Of a stretch of DNA of 64,000 bases, positions 33,745 to 43,691 are shown piece by piece (position 1 is the first letter of the stretch; the number at the start of each line of letters is the position of its first letter). The DNA is from Desulfocicer vacuolatum DSM 3385 (GTDB lineage: Bacteria; Desulfobacterota; Desulfobacteria; Desulfobacterales; Desulfobacteraceae): positions 124,001 to 188,000 of the forward strand of contig NZ_FWXY01000004.1 of assembly GCF_900176365.1 (NCBI RefSeq), given 5' to 3'. Both the position numbers and the translations under genes were made by a program. Below the pieces are notes generated by a model. That model saw only the letters and a program-made list of their open reading frames with translations, ran no database searches and was not told the origin of the DNA.

Positions 33745-35277
33745 ATGCAAAAGGATCAAATGGAGTTGGTTTCTCCAGTGGCCGGGGAGATTGATTTTTT
33801 GGAAGCGGATACAATACAGGTAATTAGAACCCGGGAATCTGATGTAACCCGTGTGGTGCATTCAAGTTTGATCATGCGGCCCATCTATGAGCTGGAAGCC
33901 CGCAGACTCAACACAGAAGAAGAAGGCGCGGATATACGAGATTTTGTGGATCTGATGTGGGTGGCTTTTGCCATTTTGGACAGTGTGTCTGAGCTCACCG
34001 AATACCATGTGGGGGCCAGCAGAAAAGAGGTGCTGGAAAAGGTGATGCCAGCCATTAAAAAGCAGCTTTTGTCAACTGAAGCATTTTCCCATGAGGCCCT
34101 TTACGCCCTTTTAAAAAAAGTATTTGATCATTTGGTGAACAGACAAAATCGTTATCTCCCCTTTGAATATCGTTATTATGACGGAATTGTGGGCAGGTTT
34201 AATCATCGAAAATTCTGGTTGATCAAGGCTGTTTACACGGGTAAGGGGCAGGAAACATTATTTTCTCTTACAGATGAGGGATACGCAGCTTATTTTGGTC
34301 TCCATGAAACAAGTGCCCTGGATTCCACGGCCATTGGAAATCTGCGTATCAAGCTTCTAATTGAACGGGGCAACGTTGATGATGCCATTTCTGTGGCAGA
34401 ACAGAACAACAAGCAATGCACCCGCAAGGCCCATGACATACGCAATACCCGCCGGGCCATCCAGCGAAACATCCATTCCATTGATTTTCACCGGATTAAC
34501 ACCATGGCCGACCAGGGGGCAGGGCAGGCCACCCAGATCCAGAATGAGAGTGGCCGTCTCCATCACATGGTGTTGGATAACCTCCAGGTCACTGAAAACA
34601 AAGATCAGGAATTAAAGCTTTTGCAACTGGCCCGGCATCTTAAGGAGCTGAACCGGCGCCAGATGGAACTGGTGAGAGAACTGCAACGTCTTCCCGATGA
34701 TTATCATCAGAACAGCTATAAATTGTTCAGGAAGCGAACGCTTGGCGTTTTACCTTCCATGGAAGAGGTGTTGCGCAGGGTGTGTTGTATGCCGGAAGGG
34801 GATGCCGCCGCAGTGGGCAGGGAGTTCATTGCCATGTTTGATCCTCCGGTGCAGATATCTTTGTTTGATCCGGGTGCCATCATTGATACCATCAGCCAGG
34901 CCCTGGAGCGCCGCAGTACCACAGGGGACAAGTCTTCACCCCTTCAGGAGATTGACGGAGAATCCATTGCCCACTACCAGGCGGAACTCACAGAACCCCT
35001 CATGAAACGTGGCCGGGATATGATCCTCAATCGCGTGCGAACCTGCGAAGCAACAATGTTGGAAGATCTCTTAAATGAGGCGGCCCTGGAGGAAGATGCC
35101 CCGTTGTTGCCCATGGCTGTGGCATTGACCGTATTTCAGTCCATCATGGATCATCGCACCGGCCAGGGAAACGGATTCCAGGTGAAACTGGGTTCCCGGG
35201 ATAAATACATCTCCATTGATCTGCCCGGGGGCAGACGTTACCGGGGAGATCACCTGGTGCTGGTGCCGGTGAATTAA
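33745..35277 (+). CDS. jetA: Wadjet system kleisin-like subunit JetA
   Basis: A 510-aa protein in the first position of a four-gene JetABCD operon. The N-terminus (~1-200) is predicted helical/winged (VHSSLIMRPIYELEARRLN, FVDLMWVAFAILDSVSELTE). The middle has long helices with PDDYHQNSYKLFRKRTLGVL, and the C-terminal segment is beta-rich (VKLGSRDKYISIDLPGGRRY). This matches the size and position of the MukF/MksF-like kleisin that bridges the two SMC heads. Direct sequence motifs for kleisins are weak, so the call rests mainly on the downstream SMC and toprim genes. The ATG is 3 bp after the cysteine-cluster gene. A 141-bp gap with a partial R1 repeat separates it from jetB. Confidence 0.8.
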   Translation: MQKDQMELVSPVAGEIDFLEADTIQVIRTRESDVTRVVHSSLIMRPIYELEARRLNTEEEGADIRDFVDLMWVAFAILDSVSELTEYHVGASRKEVLEKVMPAIKKQLLSTEAFSHEALYALLKKVFDHLVNRQNRYLPFEYRYYDGIVGRFNHRKFWLIKAVYTGKGQETLFSLTDEGYAAYFGLHETSALDSTAIGNLRIKLLIERGNVDDAISVAEQNNKQCTRKAHDIRNTRRAIQRNIHSIDFHRINTMADQGAGQATQIQNESGRLHHMVLDNLQVTENKDQELKLLQLARHLKELNRRQMELVRELQRLPDDYHQNSYKLFRKRTLGVLPSMEEVLRRVCCMPEGDAAAVGREFIAMFDPPVQISLFDPGAIIDTISQALERRSTTGDKSSPLQEIDGESIAHYQAELTEPLMKRGRDMILNRVRTCEATMLEDLLNEAALEEDAPLLPMAVALTVFQSIMDHRTGQGNGFQVKLGSRDKYISIDLPGGRRYRGDHLVLVPVN

Positions 35278-35321
35278 AGTATCTGATATCATTAATCATT
35301 AGGTTCGAGGTTGTAGGCGCC

Positions 35322-35358
35322 CAATTGACCGATCCCATTACCCGTCGGGGGTTCTGTT
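35322..35358. repeat. R1 repeat, partial copy d
   Basis: CCAATTGACCGATCCC, ATTACCCGTCGGGGG and TTCTG correspond to one arm and centre of the R1 hairpin. It lies inside the Wadjet operon, between jetA and jetB. Confidence 0.55.
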
Positions 35359-35418
35359 AATTGGGCCATTGAACAACACCGCCGACCCATTCCCGGCATA
35401 AAACATAGAGACATCACC

Positions 35419-36219
35419 ATGGAAAATATTTACGAAATCAGCCGCCTTGTGTATCTGAGTCTGGCATACAGCAACGGCAATAAACGAATTATCAACGACC
35501 ATCAGACAGAGCTCATGGAGTTGCTCCAGCGTTTCCAGGCCGAGGATACCTTTCACCGGGCCGTGATGGAAAATATCCGGGCCATGGAACTCCAGCTTTT
35601 GGAGGTGGAACCCCAGGGCCTTCGCCTGTCCGCCCGGAATGGTGCCAGTTTTTTTGCCACCACCCTTACGGATTATGGCAAAATGTTGGGTAGAACCCCC
35701 CTGAAAGCCGGAGAACTTCTTTGTGTGCATTGTGCCGTGGCCACGGCGTTTTTCCCCACAGAGTCGGATCTGGATGCCCCGGTGGAGGATCTTGGGGTCA
35801 TCGTTTCCGGTGATGTCATTGAGATCCTTCGGGTTTTTGCCAAGGCAGAAGAGACCATGGACCCTGAGGATGAAATTCTCCATCCAGAGGTGAGAACGGC
35901 GGCCCGGAGACTCAGGGAACTTCCCGAAGAAAATCCCGACAGCAAGCGGGCCGTGGGGGGTAACAGCTGGCTTGAGTTAATCACACGGGTGCTGGAACAG
36001 ATGGTGGCCACAGGATATCTGCTGGAATTCAGGGAAGAGGGGGAAGAAGAGATGGAGTACCGACCCACACCCGCTTACCAGAGTGCCATGCGTACGGCAT
36101 CTGTGTATGTTTTTCATGCCTTTCGAGAGCTTGTGGCAGAGAAAAAAATGTTCATTCTCCCTGGGGATGATTCCCGGGAACTCCCCCGGTCTGCCCCCGG
36201 CGAGGTGCCCCATGTATAA
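35419..36219 (+). CDS. jetB: Wadjet system KITE-like subunit JetB
   Basis: A 266-aa protein between JetA and the SMC-like JetC, the place of the MukE/MksE-like KITE subunit. It begins with helices (MENIYEISRLVYLSLAYSNG) and has winged-helix-like stretches (NSWLELITRVLEQMVATGYLL, then EFREEGEEEMEYRP). Its stop overlaps the jetC start (ATGTATAA, 8 bp), so translation is coupled. KITE subunits bind the kleisin and regulate the SMC complex. The call depends on context. Confidence 0.78.
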   Translation: MENIYEISRLVYLSLAYSNGNKRIINDHQTELMELLQRFQAEDTFHRAVMENIRAMELQLLEVEPQGLRLSARNGASFFATTLTDYGKMLGRTPLKAGELLCVHCAVATAFFPTESDLDAPVEDLGVIVSGDVIEILRVFAKAEETMDPEDEILHPEVRTAARRLRELPEENPDSKRAVGGNSWLELITRVLEQMVATGYLLEFREEGEEEMEYRPTPAYQSAMRTASVYVFHAFRELVAEKKMFILPGDDSRELPRSAPGEVPHV

Positions 36220-39200
36220 GTTAAGTCGATTTTTTGTCAGTGATCTTGTGGCCGGGGAGAACATTCTCAGAAACGGTTATTTCCCCATTTGCAAAGAAAA
36301 TGAACAGGCAGAGCATGGTATCATTGTTGCTGCCAACGGCTCCTGCAAGACCACTTTGCTCTCCTTTTTGTTCTCTGTTTTTGTTCCTGATCGCCGTCGT
36401 TTTGTGCAATATCTCCAGTCCAGTGGCGACAAAACACTGGATCAATATCTGGTACCTGACCGACCTTCTTTGGTGATGCTGGAATTATCCATGGATCTGG
36501 ACCCCACCCTTTTTGAGTCTCAACCCCGGGAACGCCTGGTGTTGGGTCAACTTCTCCATCGAAAGAAAACCACCCCGGATCATATTGAGCGAAGCTATTT
36601 TATAGGAGATTATGAGTTTTTTAACACGCTTCGTGTGCAATGGGACACGCTTTCCAATGCCAATCATCCCCACACTGCGGTGAAAGAGTTTTTAAACGGC
36701 AAGGTTCATCAGACTGCCAGCCAGAAGGAATGGCAGGAAAAACTTGAATCCCTGGGGCTTGACCCTTGGCTTGTGAACCGTCAGGTGGATTTTTCCCGCA
36801 GTGAAGGGGGGATCAAGGATTCCTTTAAATTTAAAAGTGAGGCTGATTTTCTCAGTTTTTTTCTGGGGTGCGTTTCGGACCTTGATGCTGCCATGGACAT
36901 CAGGAAAAATACGGCCCAGACCATTGCAAAGATGAAAAACCGTCCTGAAAAGAAAAAACAGCTGGATGCGGTGTTATCCCTTAAAAAAAATATGGCGGAT
37001 TTCCATGATATGGGCCGGGAGTGGCGCAAGGCCCACAAGGATATGGGAAATTACACCTTGCAGCTGGGGGAAGGGGCACATCGTCTCAGTTCTGCCCGGA
37101 AAGAGGCAGACATGGCCCTTGAAATGGCAGACGCTGCAGTGAAAAATAATCGGGACAGGCAAAAAGAGACAAGAGATGCCAGGGACACAGCCCATGCCAA
37201 TCAAGTGCAGGTGGAAGAGGTCGGCCACAGCCGGGAAAGCCATAAGCTCAAAGGCTTGATCCGGGAAGCAGATGAAAAATTGGAAAAATGCCAAAATGAA
37301 AAGATGGCACTTAAGGCTGCAGAGTATATGGCTTCCCAGAGACAGCTCAAGGCAGAGGTGGAGTCCAAGGATAAAATTCTGGCCCGCAGGACCTCTGACC
37401 TGGAACCTGCGCAACGTCAGGTGGATCTCCGGGCGGCCCAGTACCATATCCGGTTAAACAGCCAGCAGATGGAATCCCTCTCTGCTGTTACTGCCATGGA
37501 AAAAGAGATAGAGGTCACCCGGGATAAGCACAACGCTTTAAAAGAACAACGCCTGGAGCAGGACAGAAAAATATCCACCTTGAATGGTGATATTGTCCGT
37601 ATCACCACCCAGATTAACGGTGCTGTCATGGCCCGGAAAAATTTATCACTTCCCCCCGGAGAAGCGCCCGGGCAGAGCCTGGCAAGGTTGGAGAAAGAAC
37701 TCCATGACTGTGAAAAAAACTTGGAGCAGACCGGCAATCAACTTGGTGACCTTGGGAATTTGCAAAACAAGAGCCAAGAGCGCTTAAATCAATTGCAGCG
37801 CTCCCAGATCCAGGAAGAGGAAGTTCTGAAACAGGCTGAAAAATCCATGGCAGATGAAAAGGCCCAAAGGACAATCCTGCTTGGCGATGTCCATCTCATA
37901 CGCATCGCAGGTGTTGCAACCTTTGAACCCACAAAGGCCGAGCTTGCCACACGCCTTGGGGAATCCATGGCCCGGATCCGCACGGGTACACAGGTTTTTC
38001 AAGAAGAGGTTCTGGAACTGAAAAATCAATTAAAGCGTCTGGAAAACATGAACTGCCTGGTGGTGGATGAGCAGGTGGCAAAACTCATTGCCCATTACAC
38101 ATCAAATGGACTCTCTCCGGCTGAGGTAAAACCCTTTCTGGATTATCTGTCCGGGCTTGATAAAACCCCGGAGGAGATCGCCCGGGTGGTGGAGGGTGAC
38201 CCGGGGCGGTTCAGCGGTATCATGGCTGCCACCCATGGGGTGATTGAGAAGGTGCAAAATATTCCTGTTCCTTCCTGGCTTTCCAGGCCCGTGGTGATAT
38301 CCACCCCCCTGGATATGGATGGACAGGGCATTGAGTTTCCCGTGATTTCACCTCAAGACCCCATTGTGTACAGTAAAAACTATCTGGAGAATCAAAAAAA
38401 GCATCTTGCCGGAAAACAGGAAAAGCTTGAAAAAGAGATCTCCCAGCGCTTATCCAGGCTTGAATCCATGGAAAAAACCCGGCGCATGCTCAATGATTAC
38501 CGGGAAAAATATCCTGACATGGCTGCGGTGGAACTGTTGTCCCGGAATGTGGCAGTTGCCGGGGAGACCATACTTACCCTTGGATCGAAGATCCAGGAAA
38601 TGACAAAGGAAAGTGAAGCCCGGGTCATCAGAAAAAAAGAGCTGGAAGAAATTTTACATAGGGAAAACAGGACCCTGGCCCGTTTGGAGCAACTTGTAAA
38701 ACTTGTGAAGAATTGGCTTGAGCAGTATGGCCGGATGGATGCCTGGGAAAAAGAGCTTTCCCAAAAAGAGATTCAAATGGTGGAGATGAACCATGTTGCC
38801 AAACAGATCCGAAACAGGGAGAAAGAAATAGAAGAGGATCTCACCCGTATTCACAGCGCCATGGCCCGGAAAAGGGCAGAGCTTAAAAATCTGGAGGAGA
38901 GGGCCGATGACATCCCGGCCTCAGAGGAGATGGTTCTCAATGAAGAACAGACTCAACAGGCCTTGTCCATGGATCTTACTACCCTTAGAAAGCAGCATGA
39001 ACAGGCCCAGAGCAATGCCATCCGTGTGGCCAGTGAATTGGGTATAGACGGGTTGAGGAATGAACTGCAGCGGGTGAAGGAAACACTTCAAAAAAATATA
39101 AACGATTTGCATCGATATGGCAGGAAAAATTCCTTTGATGAAGAAATTGCTGAAAAATGGGCCGGAAAAAGCAGCCGGGAGCGGGATGAACGCATGGCAG

Positions 39201-40591
39201 CACTTTCAGTGTCTGTGGCCGATCTAAAAGAACAGCTGGCCGGGCAAAAAGTGCAGCTGGAAGGCCGGGACCGGGATCTTGCCCGCTGTAAGGAAAAATT
39301 AAAAACTTTATCCCGCCAGGGCATCCATGGAGACATTGACCCGGAGGATCTTGAAAATACTGATTTGGAAGGGTTGATTCTTCACTACGGCAAAGTGGCT
39401 GAAGCCCTGGAAGAGAAGCTCAATGAGCTGAAAAAGCATGGGGCAATCCACGTTGCGGATTTGGAAAAAAATCGCCGATGGCTCAATGAACTCAACCTTT
39501 CCCTGGCCATGTTAACGGGGCAGGTGCCTTACTGGGACAGTAACTCCCCCCGGGGGGACTGGCTGGAGCTTGTCCGGGTGGAAAAGGAAACCCGGATAAA
39601 CAATGCGGTGAAATTCAAAAAACAGATGGAAGTGATTCTTAATTCCCGAAAGAAAATGGAAGGCCTCATGGAAAAGAGCCGGAAAAATATGGGCAGCGCC
39701 TTTGACAGACTCCAGGGGGAACTTCGGGATGAAACCTTAAGAAAGCAGTTGCCGGCCATTGTGGATGAACTTTCCCGGCATGATGCGGAAAGCATGGGAA
39801 CCCAGAGCGGTGAGCTCATGGAAAAATGCAGCCACATTGCCGCCAACATAGAAAGCGATCTGTCCCGATCTGCCCAGTTTGTGGAAAGCCTTGTGGATCA
39901 ACTGTTCCAACATGTGAGGGTCTCTTACCAAAAGCTCCAGACCGCCTCAAAACAACTCATGCCTGACAATGTGTTTGTCTATGGGGGTAAGCCGATTTTA
40001 AAGGCCGGTGCCCGCCTGGATTTCACCCGGCATACCCTGATATATCGTAAAACCATTGATAACTGGCTGGATGAGTTGATCCAGAAAAATTATATTCCAG
40101 AGGTCACTGCCAGGGTGGGGGACACCTTGGGTATGGAGCTTCTTTACCGACTGCTCAAGGTTTCTTCGGCAAAACAGGAGTTTGGTATCCGCCTGCTTAA
40201 ATGTGATGATACAGGCCGAAATTATGAGCCCGTGGGTAAAGATCTGGGGTCCGGGGGCGAGGCTTTGACAACGGCGGTGCTTCTTTACTCTCTTCTCACC
40301 TCCATGCGTCAAAAACGCCGGAACAAAAGGGATGATCGTATCCCTGCCTTTCTCATTGCTGACAATCCTCTGGGGGTTTGTAACCGTTCTGATTTTCTGG
40401 ACACCCAGCTTAAGGTGGCCCGGGCCATGGGCATTCAGTGCATCTATTTCACCGGTATCAATGACCGGGAATCGTTGGGGCTTTTCCAGCACCGGGTGGC
40501 CATTCGCCACAGTGGCAAACACCTCCAGGTGGGGGACAAACCCTTTAATTGCCTGGAGGTCATTGAACAGAATGTGGAGGATCGGGAATGA
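36212..40591 (+). CDS. jetC: Wadjet SMC-like ATPase JetC
   Basis: A 1459-aa SMC/MukB-type ATPase, the motor that extrudes DNA loops in the Wadjet anti-plasmid system. The N-terminal half-head carries a P-loop AANGSCKTT at residues 40-48. Long heptad-rich coiled coils (~300-610 and ~735-1190) flank a hinge-like globular part (~615-730, YTSNGLSPAEVKPFLDYLSG). The C-terminal half-head has the signature LGSGGEALTTAVLLY and a Walker B-like AFLIADNPLG. I start it at ATG 36212 (MYKLSRFFVSD), overlapping the jetB stop; the frame is open upstream to 36083 but there duplicates jetB DNA. The usual P-loop Gly before Lys is Cys45 here (TGC, 36344-36346), which may reduce ATP use. Confidence 0.88.
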   Translation: MYKLSRFFVSDLVAGENILRNGYFPICKENEQAEHGIIVAANGSCKTTLLSFLFSVFVPDRRRFVQYLQSSGDKTLDQYLVPDRPSLVMLELSMDLDPTLFESQPRERLVLGQLLHRKKTTPDHIERSYFIGDYEFFNTLRVQWDTLSNANHPHTAVKEFLNGKVHQTASQKEWQEKLESLGLDPWLVNRQVDFSRSEGGIKDSFKFKSEADFLSFFLGCVSDLDAAMDIRKNTAQTIAKMKNRPEKKKQLDAVLSLKKNMADFHDMGREWRKAHKDMGNYTLQLGEGAHRLSSARKEADMALEMADAAVKNNRDRQKETRDARDTAHANQVQVEEVGHSRESHKLKGLIREADEKLEKCQNEKMALKAAEYMASQRQLKAEVESKDKILARRTSDLEPAQRQVDLRAAQYHIRLNSQQMESLSAVTAMEKEIEVTRDKHNALKEQRLEQDRKISTLNGDIVRITTQINGAVMARKNLSLPPGEAPGQSLARLEKELHDCEKNLEQTGNQLGDLGNLQNKSQERLNQLQRSQIQEEEVLKQAEKSMADEKAQRTILLGDVHLIRIAGVATFEPTKAELATRLGESMARIRTGTQVFQEEVLELKNQLKRLENMNCLVVDEQVAKLIAHYTSNGLSPAEVKPFLDYLSGLDKTPEEIARVVEGDPGRFSGIMAATHGVIEKVQNIPVPSWLSRPVVISTPLDMDGQGIEFPVISPQDPIVYSKNYLENQKKHLAGKQEKLEKEISQRLSRLESMEKTRRMLNDYREKYPDMAAVELLSRNVAVAGETILTLGSKIQEMTKESEARVIRKKELEEILHRENRTLARLEQLVKLVKNWLEQYGRMDAWEKELSQKEIQMVEMNHVAKQIRNREKEIEEDLTRIHSAMARKRAELKNLEERADDIPASEEMVLNEEQTQQALSMDLTTLRKQHEQAQSNAIRVASELGIDGLRNELQRVKETLQKNINDLHRYGRKNSFDEEIAEKWAGKSSRERDERMAALSVSVADLKEQLAGQKVQLEGRDRDLARCKEKLKTLSRQGIHGDIDPEDLENTDLEGLILHYGKVAEALEEKLNELKKHGAIHVADLEKNRRWLNELNLSLAMLTGQVPYWDSNSPRGDWLELVRVEKETRINNAVKFKKQMEVILNSRKKMEGLMEKSRKNMGSAFDRLQGELRDETLRKQLPAIVDELSRHDAESMGTQSGELMEKCSHIAANIESDLSRSAQFVESLVDQLFQHVRVSYQKLQTASKQLMPDNVFVYGGKPILKAGARLDFTRHTLIYRKTIDNWLDELIQKNYIPEVTARVGDTLGMELLYRLLKVSSAKQEFGIRLLKCDDTGRNYEPVGKDLGSGGEALTTAVLLYSLLTSMRQKRRNKRDDRIPAFLIADNPLGVCNRSDFLDTQLKVARAMGIQCIYFTGINDRESLGLFQHRVAIRHSGKHLQVGDKPFNCLEVIEQNVEDRE

Positions 40592-41721
40592 TTGATTCCG
40601 GTATTACCAAAGGGCTCAATGAGCTCTTTCACACATCAAAAAGGAAAAAAATTCCTGCTGATTTGCTTTTTAGTACCGCCAGGGATCGTTCCCTAAATCA
40701 GGACAGTGATCTGGCTGTTGAGAAAAAGCTGCTTCAAATACTGGAGCAATTTGCCCGGGAAGGGGTTATTAAGTTACCCGCTGCAAAGGGAAAAAAGTGG
40801 GACGTCAAAACTAAGTTACCCCACCATGTCACCTTGGTCAATACTGCTGAAGATATACGAAAAAAAAGGAATAAGCAGGAACGAGACGATATTTTAAATA
40901 GCACTTCCTGGGAACCTGAGAAGATGATTCCCATTATCCATGGTGATTGCTGTCCAATGACATTGGATGATTGCAAAAAGGCACAAAAAGTGAACAGTTA
41001 TTTGATCAACAGACCCTTAGATCAGCCCATGATTCCTGCAAGGGAAAGGGCGCTTCGGATATTCGGAGATGAAAAAGCGTTGGACAAGGTGAAGGATCAA
41101 GGCCTTTTTTCCGGCAGCATCTCCCTGAAAGATCTGGATTGCTTTTATTGTCCGGAACCCATTCCCTTTTATCCGCTTTCCCCGGATGTTCAAAATACCC
41201 GGGGAAAGGCGCTTCTTTTTGTGGAAAACGCAAATACCTATGAGAGTTGCCGCCGGGCCAATCAAATAACCCAGACCTTTGCAGCCATTGTTTATGGCAA
41301 AGGATTTAAAGCCGCCACTAAGCCTGAAAAAATGGATGGTATTGTGGAAATTGAGGCCCAACTGGAATCCCAAGGTCTGTGGTATTTTGGCGATCTTGAT
41401 CCCGCAGGGCTGGCCATTCCCAGAACCATCAATAAATTTCGAAAACAGGCAAAGCTCCCCTTGATACAGCCAGCCATACCACTCTATCGGGTATTGATGG
41501 CCAAAGGCTATTTTGTTCCTTACCGGAAAACATCCCAGAAAAAATTTCACGATGAAGAATGGGCAATTCAATGGCTGGGGAAAGAATTGGCTCTATCCTA
41601 TCTTGAGAAGGTGGAGCAGTTTAGATGGCCCCAGGAAGGGTTGAGTCAACGGGATCTGGAAATTATTTTTATGGAATATTCAGGGATTCCTATGCCAAAG
41701 GTTAGCCGAGATATTTTTTGA
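40588..41721 (+). CDS. jetD: Wadjet toprim nuclease JetD (DUF3322/DUF2220)
   Basis: A 377-aa nuclease subunit that cleaves circular DNA captured by JetABC. The C-terminal toprim fold is clear: ALLFVENANTYES with Glu213, and WYFGDLDPAGLAIP with Asp269 and Asp271. The N-terminal half (KRKKIPADLLFSTARDRSLN, LPHHVTLVNTAEDI) is the DNA-binding part. It overlaps jetC by 4 bp (ATGA), completing a coupled jetB-jetC-jetD block. All metal-binding residues appear intact. Nothing resembling a terminator directly follows. Confidence 0.88.
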   Translation: MIDSGITKGLNELFHTSKRKKIPADLLFSTARDRSLNQDSDLAVEKKLLQILEQFAREGVIKLPAAKGKKWDVKTKLPHHVTLVNTAEDIRKKRNKQERDDILNSTSWEPEKMIPIIHGDCCPMTLDDCKKAQKVNSYLINRPLDQPMIPARERALRIFGDEKALDKVKDQGLFSGSISLKDLDCFYCPEPIPFYPLSPDVQNTRGKALLFVENANTYESCRRANQITQTFAAIVYGKGFKAATKPEKMDGIVEIEAQLESQGLWYFGDLDPAGLAIPRTINKFRKQAKLPLIQPAIPLYRVLMAKGYFVPYRKTSQKKFHDEEWAIQWLGKELALSYLEKVEQFRWPQEGLSQRDLEIIFMEYSGIPMPKVSRDIF

Positions 41722-41920: not shown

Positions 41921-42775
41921 ATGAGCGCTGAAACATTATGTGAAATTGAGAATAGTTATTATAGCTATCAACAGCTCATCAATCTCTATGCTAACCATAA
42001 AGAAGAGTGGTTTGGAGACATAGATGTGAATTTATATGGATGGTTTTCAGCAAACTCATCCTCTGTTTTAGGAGCTATATTAACCAAATTTCAAAATAAT
42101 TTAAATACCGTCCGTATTTTTGCCGAAAAATCTGAAAGTATTCTCAAACGAAATGGTTTTCTTTCCCATTTTGGGCATTCAAAAGCAATAGACTATAATC
42201 ATACCGCTATAGCATACCAAGTTTTGTCAACAGAGGATGATAGATATTTTAATAACTATGTTTTCAAAGAATTCATAAGCAGGCCAGACCTGCCAGTCAT
42301 GACCGATGCTCTAAAGAGGAAACTTGCCGAATCTATTTATGAAATTTTCATTAATGCAAAAATGCACAGTCAAACGGAAAAAATATTTGTTTGTGGACAA
42401 TTTTTCCCCAAAAAACATAAAATAATATTCACGATAACTGATATTGGAATAGGGATTAAGAATGTTGTAAACAATAGATTTGGTTCCAATTTAAGCGCTA
42501 TTCAAGCAATCGAATGGGCGATTCAAGATAAGCATACAACAAAAAAGGACGTTTCAGGAGGAATTGGTCTTGCTTTGTTACATGAATTCATTAAATTAAA
42601 TAGAGGAACGGTTCAGATTGTTTCTAATGAAGGTTTCTGGGAACTAAGTCATACAGGCAAAGTAGTTAGAAGTTTTACAAACGAATTTCCGGGAACAATG
42701 GTTAATATATCGGTATGTACCAATGATGCCAACCAATACATGCTTTCAAAAGAAGTCACAGACGATATTTTTTAA
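41921..42775 (+). CDS. GHKL-type (histidine-kinase-like) ATPase, first gene of a possible defence module
   Basis: A 284-aa soluble protein. Residues ~1-130 are an unassigned helical N-domain. Residues ~130-270 are a GHKL ATPase domain: N-box ESIYEIFINAKMHS (137-150, Glu and Asn), G1 box TITDIGIGIK (Asp174) and G2 box SGGIGLALLHEF (213 on). No phosphoacceptor His/DHp domain is present, so it is not a classical sensor kinase. It resembles SpoIIAB/RsbW-type or GyrB/MutL-type ATPases. It is followed 10 bp later by a STAS-like gene and then directly by a PIN nuclease gene. The DNA is AT-richer than the neighbouring Wadjet genes. An ATPase that switches a STAS partner to control the nuclease is inferred. 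Confidence 0.8.
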   Translation: MSAETLCEIENSYYSYQQLINLYANHKEEWFGDIDVNLYGWFSANSSSVLGAILTKFQNNLNTVRIFAEKSESILKRNGFLSHFGHSKAIDYNHTAIAYQVLSTEDDRYFNNYVFKEFISRPDLPVMTDALKRKLAESIYEIFINAKMHSQTEKIFVCGQFFPKKHKIIFTITDIGIGIKNVVNNRFGSNLSAIQAIEWAIQDKHTTKKDVSGGIGLALLHEFIKLNRGTVQIVSNEGFWELSHTGKVVRSFTNEFPGTMVNISVCTNDANQYMLSKEVTDDIF

Positions 42776-42785
42776 AGGAAACTTA

Positions 42786-43136
42786 ATGGATACAATTAAA
42801 CTTAGTATATTCTCGATCGTAGGAGATTCTTTTTGCGTAGCCGCTGAAGACGGAGAAAAAGTTTTTAAGCAGATACGGATGGGTATTGAAAAAAATAAGA
42901 AAATAACACTTTCTTTTCAAAATGTAGAGATGCTGACCACCGCATTTCTCAATACAGCCATTGGAAAGCTTTATGGTGAATACGATGAGAAGACAGTCAA
43001 GAAGCATATGTCCGTGGAAGACATGGACAGCAGCGACAAACTTCGTTTGAAAAGAGTTATTGATACAGCAAAAGTGTATTACGCAAATCCCAATCAACTT
43101 GAAGACTCCATCAAAACAATCATGGAGGAAGATTAG
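42786..43136 (+). CDS. STAS-like (DUF4325-type) protein
   Basis: A 116-aa protein with an alternating beta-alpha pattern (IKLSIFSIVG, GEKVFKQIRMGIEKNKKITL, SFQNVEMLTTAFLNTAIGKL) that matches STAS-like DUF4325 domains. The TTAFLN stretch is where STAS proteins have their switch Ser/Thr. ATG 42786 has AAAGGA upstream; a longer frame from 42723 overlaps the ATPase gene and is rejected. Its TAG at 43134-43136 directly abuts the ATG of the PIN gene. By analogy with SpoIIAA/SpoIIAB, the preceding GHKL ATPase may bind or phosphorylate it (inference). Confidence 0.75.
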   Translation: MDTIKLSIFSIVGDSFCVAAEDGEKVFKQIRMGIEKNKKITLSFQNVEMLTTAFLNTAIGKLYGEYDEKTVKKHMSVEDMDSSDKLRLKRVIDTAKVYYANPNQLEDSIKTIMEED

Positions 43137-43691
43137 ATGGCCCACTATGTTAGGATAGATCGCCTTCCAGATTTGAAGAATAAAAAAGTACTTTTTGATA
43201 CTAATATCTGGATATACATTTTTTGTGAAATCGGAGAATACAATAAATTTTTTGTACATACATACTCCAAAGCGTTTTATATTCTTTTAAGATCTGAAAA
43301 CACGATTTATACTGATTTGACCATTCTGTCTGAGTTCATCAATCGTTATCTAAAAATAGCGTGTTCAAACTATCTAAAAAGAGAAAACCTGTCGTCTATT
43401 AATTATAAAAGAGACTATCGAATCACTGAAGACTACAAAGAGGCGTGGGCAACGGTATGTGATATTGTACGTCAAAAAATCTTATCAAACTCCCATATTG
43501 TAAATACAAACTATGACCAAACTTCAATGGCAAATTTGCTTCAAGAGGATCAGTTTGGAACAGATTTCAACGACAATCATATTGTGAATCTCTGCCAAGT
43601 TGAAGACATGTTTCTGATGACCAATGATGCGGACTTTAAACACAGCAACTTGAATGTTATCACAGAAAACAACGCATATTGGCGTAGTTAG
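43137..43691 (+). CDS. PIN-domain nuclease
   Basis: A 184-aa PIN-domain protein, a Mg-dependent RNase fold. Acidic residues in expected order: Asp21 in VLFDTNIWIYIF, Glu66 in TILSEFINRYL, Asp143/146 in GTDFNDNHIVNLC and Asp164/166 in LMTNDADFKH. It starts on the base after the STAS stop and has no adjacent VapB-type antitoxin, so it is unlikely to be a plain VapC. Its pairing with an ATPase and a STAS-like partner suggests a regulated effector nuclease. A short inverted repeat GACTAC/GTAGTC follows the stop, but no T run. Confidence 0.8.
   Translation: MAHYVRIDRLPDLKNKKVLFDTNIWIYIFCEIGEYNKFFVHTYSKAFYILLRSENTIYTDLTILSEFINRYLKIACSNYLKRENLSSINYKRDYRITEDYKEAWATVCDIVRQKILSNSHIVNTNYDQTSMANLLQEDQFGTDFNDNHIVNLCQVEDMFLMTNDADFKHSNLNVITENNAYWRS

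Follow-up and report, generated by a model that had tools for sequence, protein, structure and literature searches.

Behind a Wadjet system in Desulfocicer vacuolatum DSM 3385, genes for a kinase-like ATPase, a small STAS-like protein and a PIN nuclease follow one another so closely that they raise the question of whether the three act as one switch, and whether that switch is new. We examined this in a 64,000-nucleotide stretch of the genome (the window), for which an earlier note had called the set a candidate undescribed module of defence or stress. The label "undescribed" does not hold: family profiles of the STAS and PIN proteins match PDB 9Z7O, a VapS-VapC crystal structure, and the same three-gene system was published with this structure and phage assays as VapKSC on 9 June 2026 (Chambers et al., EMBO J, PMC13373217). 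We consider it very probable that the window triad is a divergent vapKSC operon working as a kinase-released RNase switch.

Gene layout and surroundings

All three genes lie on the forward strand: vapK (41921..42775, 284 aa) encodes a STAS domain (residues ~1–85) and a GHKL kinase domain, vapS (42786..43136, 116 aa) a predicted DUF4325 STAS antitoxin, and vapC (43137..43691, 184 aa) a predicted PIN-domain RNase toxin. The ORF list gives gaps of 10 bases between vapK and vapS and 0 bases between vapS and vapC, confirming the tight packing described earlier, and a purine-rich, ribosome-binding-like stretch could be read 5' of each ORF. The GC content of the triad is 34%, compared to 46% for the whole window; its AT-richness, also remarked on previously, is true yet not extreme, because 16 of about 600 other same-size windows are equally low. 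The 2023 release of PADLOC-DB holds no model for gene 2 or gene 3. No VapB-type antitoxin gene was seen, nor any other plausible ORF between or beside the triad genes; the earlier statement that such an antitoxin is missing is correct for VapB but not for antitoxins at large, as the STAS protein would itself be the antitoxin.

The neighbouring Wadjet type III system (33745..41721, + strand) is a separate system that ends 199 bases upstream of the triad. PADLOC HMMs identify JetA3 (33745-35277, 5e-31), JetC3 (about 36083-40591, 5e-82) and JetD3 (40588-41721, 2e-56), all on the + strand, and gene order assigns the JetB slot to the + strand ORF at 35419-36219, which gave no match to the JetB HMMs. 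Of the earlier description of a complete Wadjet directly before the triad, the type III neighbour therefore stands, while its completeness holds by gene order only. The ORF in the JetB slot could be either a divergent JetB or the product of a start or frame problem at the jetB-jetC junction. Wider afield, the locus is flanked on one side by a glyoxalase and a CxxCxxCC gene, and on the other by a DEAD helicase, tatA/tatC and FAD oxidoreductases that we take to be glpA-like. An empty-site search using flanking genes found the two genes not adjacent to each other in other genomes.

The three proteins and their match to VapKSC

VapK matches the Pfam HATPase_c model with E=1.1e-4 and 23 bits, under the 26.4 cut-off, and carries an N-box (E141/N145/H149) and the motifs D174-x-G176-x-G178 and G214-x-G216. 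In an alignment of 84 triads, E141, N145, H149, G176 and G214 are each present in 84/84, D174 and G216 each in 83/84, and C158-G159-Q160 is near-invariant, with the Cys in 83/84. In the AF2 model (pLDDT 94), a STAS-type fold at the N-terminus precedes a GHKL domain; the model opens directly with the STAS fold, leaving VapK with no HTH, and its top Foldseek matches in the PDB are the SpoIIAB complexes 1l0o, 1til and 1tid. Profile positions 21–93 also match the anti-sigma antagonist TM1442 (E=0.0011). Hence the histidine-kinase-type ATPase of the earlier note is upheld in its GHKL part, but the protein is not a bare ATPase, its first ~85 residues being a STAS domain. We infer that VapK is a STAS+GHKL serine/threonine kinase of SpoIIAB type, with activity predicted at this locus. 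Residue W41 is F, W or Y in 78/84 homologues, and 4 more lack the position; it is a candidate counterpart of the published ssDNA-stacking VapK F54, with an uncertain mapping, as residue 54 of the E. coli VapK sequence used for alignment is Ala and its numbering differs from the published one.

VapS matches Pfam PF14213 (DUF4325, 'STAS-like') with E=7.5e-16, in line with its previous description as a 116-aa STAS-like protein, and consists of the STAS domain only, with no HTH or wHTH. Residue 52 is Ser in 48/84 and Thr in 36/84 of the triads, with no other residue occurring, and F54 and G60 are found in 84/84. We take residue 52 to be the counterpart of SpoIIAA Ser58. The VapS family profile matches 'Escherichia VapS' in 9Z7O (E=3.9e-28, positions 4–116), the alignment running through position 116, the C-terminal end, and the predicted phosphosite Thr52 (codon 42939..42941, + strand) aligns with Escherichia VapS Ser48.

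VapC scores above the cut-off for Pfam PIN PF01850 (E=1.2e-5), and its family profile matches 'Escherichia VapC' in 9Z7O (E=7.4e-24). The putative PIN acids D21, E66, D143, D146, D164 and D166 are all present, as the earlier reading of an intact nuclease had it, and each is kept in 79–82/84 homologues, where several of the aligned triads carry truncated or split PIN ORFs. The predicted catalytic Asp21 (codon 43197..43199, + strand), which aligns with Escherichia VapC Asp28, is kept in 82/84. The AF2 model of VapC (pLDDT 93.6) finds VapC-type PIN toxins as its top Foldseek matches.

In the published system, VapS keeps VapC inactive until VapK phosphorylates a conserved VapS Ser/Thr and VapC is freed, and a helix at the VapS C-terminus extends to the active site of VapC (PMC13373217). 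Escherichia VapS and VapC assemble in a 2:2 ratio; VapC is toxic and is neutralised by VapS, the phosphomimic VapS S48E loses both VapC binding and neutralisation, and removal of the VapS C-terminus abolishes neutralisation (PMC13373217). With the vapKSC operon, protection against phage Bas42 reaches about 2 logs and is lost with VapC D28A, VapS S48A or VapK F54A; activation by ssDNA was demonstrated for CapK, a relative, and extended by inference to VapK (PMC13373217).

We aligned the window proteins to those of an E. coli vapKSC copy (297, 116 and 203 aa), where T52 aligns with S48 and D21 with D28 at identities of 24% for VapK, 24% for VapS and 17% for VapC. Gene order and strand, the STAS+GHKL kinase lacking an HTH, the 116-aa STAS antitoxin with a conserved Ser/Thr, the PIN toxin with an intact active site and the close-by defence genes are shared with VapKSC; the window triad differs in being 17–25% identical to the E. 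coli homologue of matching size, in having Thr rather than Ser at the phosphosite, and in its Wadjet III neighbour. Because the profiles match 9Z7O and both key residues align while identity is low, we assign the triad to VapKSC as a distant clade; it displays nearly all of the defining features of that system that a sequence can reveal. The E. coli copy itself (L150:7626-9485) lies in the chromosome beside mntR, adjoining phage tail genes, and a DNA search found it in only 2/5,426 complete E. coli genomes.

In the mechanism we propose, VapS would bind VapC and hold the PIN RNase inactive, and a sign of phage attack or of damage to DNA would activate VapK; the likeliest such sign is ssDNA lodged between the STAS and kinase domains of VapK. 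Active VapK would phosphorylate VapS Thr52, VapS would release VapC, and freed VapC would cleave RNA and stop growth, making the operon an anti-phage suicide switch. VapC toxicity and its neutralisation by VapS are here carried over from the distant Escherichia homologue, and kinase activity, an ssDNA signal, an RNA target and protection are predicted for the window locus by the same analogy; because identity is so low, this locus may have another activation signal and another RNA target.

Conservation, spread and related loci

With gene 1 alone as the query, a scan of 84,980 species genomes returned 64 loci, and genes 2 and 3 are also present in the same order in 61/64, spanning about 20 phyla as counted from record titles and the tree, which bears out the proposed linkage of the three families. 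Hosts include Bacteroidota, Bacillota, Pseudomonadota, Elusimicrobiota, Verrucomicrobiota, Actinomycetota and Spirochaetota, and archaeal triads occur in Methanosarcinales and Thermoplasmata MAGs, a type of source for which contamination is possible. The spread is patchy, with the VapC profile found in 8/395 genomes of the window's own phylum. Pairwise protein distances of the three genes correlate with r = 0.93, 0.91 and 0.88, compared to a permutation maximum of 0.19; the three genes co-evolve. The nearest relatives of the window triad are Bacteroidales (53%), Methanosarcinales (about 50%) and Fibrobacteres copies, with which it forms a small clade in a quick tree.

The triad is also in the same order in 9/12 viral loci, and searching viral sequences with only the STAS protein as the query returned no relatives. 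A first pass turned up triads on a Deinococcus plasmid, next to the integrase of a Streptococcus prophage and on a gut phage contig. The vapC of Streptococcus phage Javan172 (L002:5122-5652, MK448860) lacks annotation, the copies in L102 and L107 adjoin an integrase, and that in L105 adjoins a lysin gene. At L065:3-2885 (partial in L028), VapK is part of an in-frame fusion whose N-terminal ~690 aa include a P-loop-like motif and match no Pfam family, and VapC at this locus is split into two ORFs.

Related kinase/STAS loci without vapC were observed as well. In L129:2905-4708, L115:3593-5337, L128:2784-4920, L151 (reverse strand) and L152:1084-3067, a small membrane-protein-like ORF of about 145–200 aa takes the place of VapC behind a related STAS-GHKL kinase and DUF4325 pair, and the phosphosite Ser/Thr is kept in 4/5 of these pairs. 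The ORF is a possible candidate for a kinase-controlled membrane effector, and no literature match for this arrangement was seen. At L116:3019-5041, such a pair has Val at the phosphosite and is followed by apparent MNT nucleotidyltransferase and HEPN genes. Single-chain HTH-HATPase-DUF4325 proteins of ~346 aa (L012-L033, L138-L149), common in the window's class, carry Gln at the usual phosphosite in 12/12 inspected and are perhaps phosphorylation-independent regulators; with this residue and their different architecture, they were set aside as VapKSC relatives. Solitary ~105-aa DUF4325 proteins in the window's family (L118, L119, L120, L122 and L124) have Trp at the phosphosite and no kinase nearby.

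Defence-operon context and the nature of the signal

Linkage to known defence genes, as the earlier note anticipated, was recovered by PADLOC and BLAST on neighbours: 25/64 loci (39%) adjoin core genes of Hma, BREX or type I R-M, a count that covers the 64-locus scan only and includes L060 by virtue of a PglX fragment. This agrees with the published 36% of 289 vapKSC instances within 10 kb of an immune gene (PMC13373217). Core genes of one system stand on both sides in 15 loci of the scan and in 3 more from a class survey, which gives at least 18 loci where BREX or Hma core genes enclose the triad. In the Hma setting, the triad is placed between the helicase HmaA and the methylase HmaB with the ATPase HmaC (L040, L042, L048, L051, L052, L055, L061, L063, L076 and L137; L053 is one-sided at a contig end), and in the BREX setting between PglX and an SNF2-type helicase with PglZ (L038, L044, L045, L047, L050, L066, L111 and L132); type I R-M forms the setting in L035, L036, L046, L070, L071, L073, L078 and L090. 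At L045:8730-9806, an OLD/AbiEii-like AAA ATPase gene sits between PglX and vapK, a second accessory module at the same BREX spot.

Overlaps of 4 bases (ATGA) are frequent at the borders of embedded triads, joining the vapK start to the upstream stop in L040, L042, L052 and L076 and the vapC stop to the next start in L063 and L076; the triad is therefore inside the operon, not just nearby. As a control, 76 neighbours of HTH-HATPase-DUF4325 proteins were screened: no family was matched by more than two members, and Hma, BREX and type I R-M core families were absent among the 25 families listed of 52. In the quick tree, Hma-embedded copies show 3 label changes versus 10.6 when shuffled, and BREX-embedded copies 5 versus 8.7, both sets spanning several phyla, as expected if composite operons move horizontally. 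In the main text of PMC13373217 we saw no reference to vapKSC having BREX, Hma or Wadjet neighbours. PIN 'backup effectors' inside or beside BREX and BREX-related (BR) loci have been surveyed in 2026 (PMC12839542), with no mention in the main text of STAS or GHKL partners; their link to VapKSC is drawn in the present analysis.

Two further explanations of the triad can be weighed against these data. VapK and VapS resemble CapK/CapS, in which a STAS-GHKL kinase likewise acts on a STAS partner, and SpoIIAB/SpoIIAA or RsbW/RsbV, which share the kinase fold and a conserved Ser/Thr at the equivalent position, so the set could be a partner switch on transcription, CapKS-like or anti-sigma, with the PIN gene as a bystander. 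However, CapK carries an HTH at its N-terminus, and CapS, a repressor of transcription, carries a wHTH (PMC13373217), whereas neither HTH is found in genes 1 and 2; no sigma factor gene is present in the window operon, the kinase has its own STAS domain, and the third gene is PIN in 61/64 loci, with catalytic residues intact and distances that track the other two (r about 0.9). VapC conservation largely refutes such a transcription switch, which we regard as highly improbable. An ordinary VapBC-type toxin-antitoxin remnant beside an unrelated ATPase would account for a PIN fold closest to VapC toxins, but it has no place for the three-gene linkage across about 20 phyla, the missing VapB-like gene or family profiles that match the VapKSC structure rather than VapBC entries; the antitoxin here is instead a STAS protein under predicted phosphorylation control, and a remnant is more improbable still.

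A closer rival keeps the same switch but changes its signal: VapK would react when a partner defence system (Wadjet in the window; BREX, Hma or type I R-M elsewhere) fails or is interfered with, rather than to general ssDNA, in the manner of guards such as PrrC in type Ic R-M or PARIS. The sandwiched triads with their frequent ATGA overlaps, and the clustering of Hma- and BREX-embedded copies across phyla, speak for it; many copies are solitary or in prophages, ssDNA produced when the host system cuts would account for the linkage with no guard at all, and the window triad lies 199 bases behind jetD, outside the Wadjet operon. We judge a guard unlikely, though far less so than the two explanations above. 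A position inside BREX and Hma operons is compatible both with a damage signal that arises while the host system acts and with a guard that fires on host-system failure. Tentatively, VapKSC may be a built-in fail-safe of BREX and of Hma, a BREX-related system: it would be passed on stably within their operons, with translational coupling at both borders, and would be set off once the host system is blocked or can no longer cope.

The kinase-released RNase switch itself, with a nuclease as the output of a partner switch in defence, is what the earlier note had suggested, and support for it comes from the co-conservation of the triad, from a Ser/Thr that never varies at the position of the SpoIIAA phosphosite, from the SpoIIAB-like fold, from the placement in defence operons and from published experiments on a homologue (PMC13373217). 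A newly published toxin-antitoxin switch is independently confirmed from sequence alone. Relative to the main text of PMC13373217, the additions are the BREX/Hma embedding, the archaeal MAGs, the vicinity to prophage integrases and the membrane-protein-linked kinase/STAS pair; the operon embedding and the membrane-effector observations are worth following. The range of VapKSC grows to about 20 phyla, archaeal MAGs among them, and takes in prophages and a plasmid; the system is often wired into BREX and Hma operons. Through this embedding, one can ask directly whether what triggers abortive-infection toxins is general DNA damage or failure of a specific partner system, and if the fail-safe reading is true, RNA cleavage by VapC would back up defence at the DNA level.
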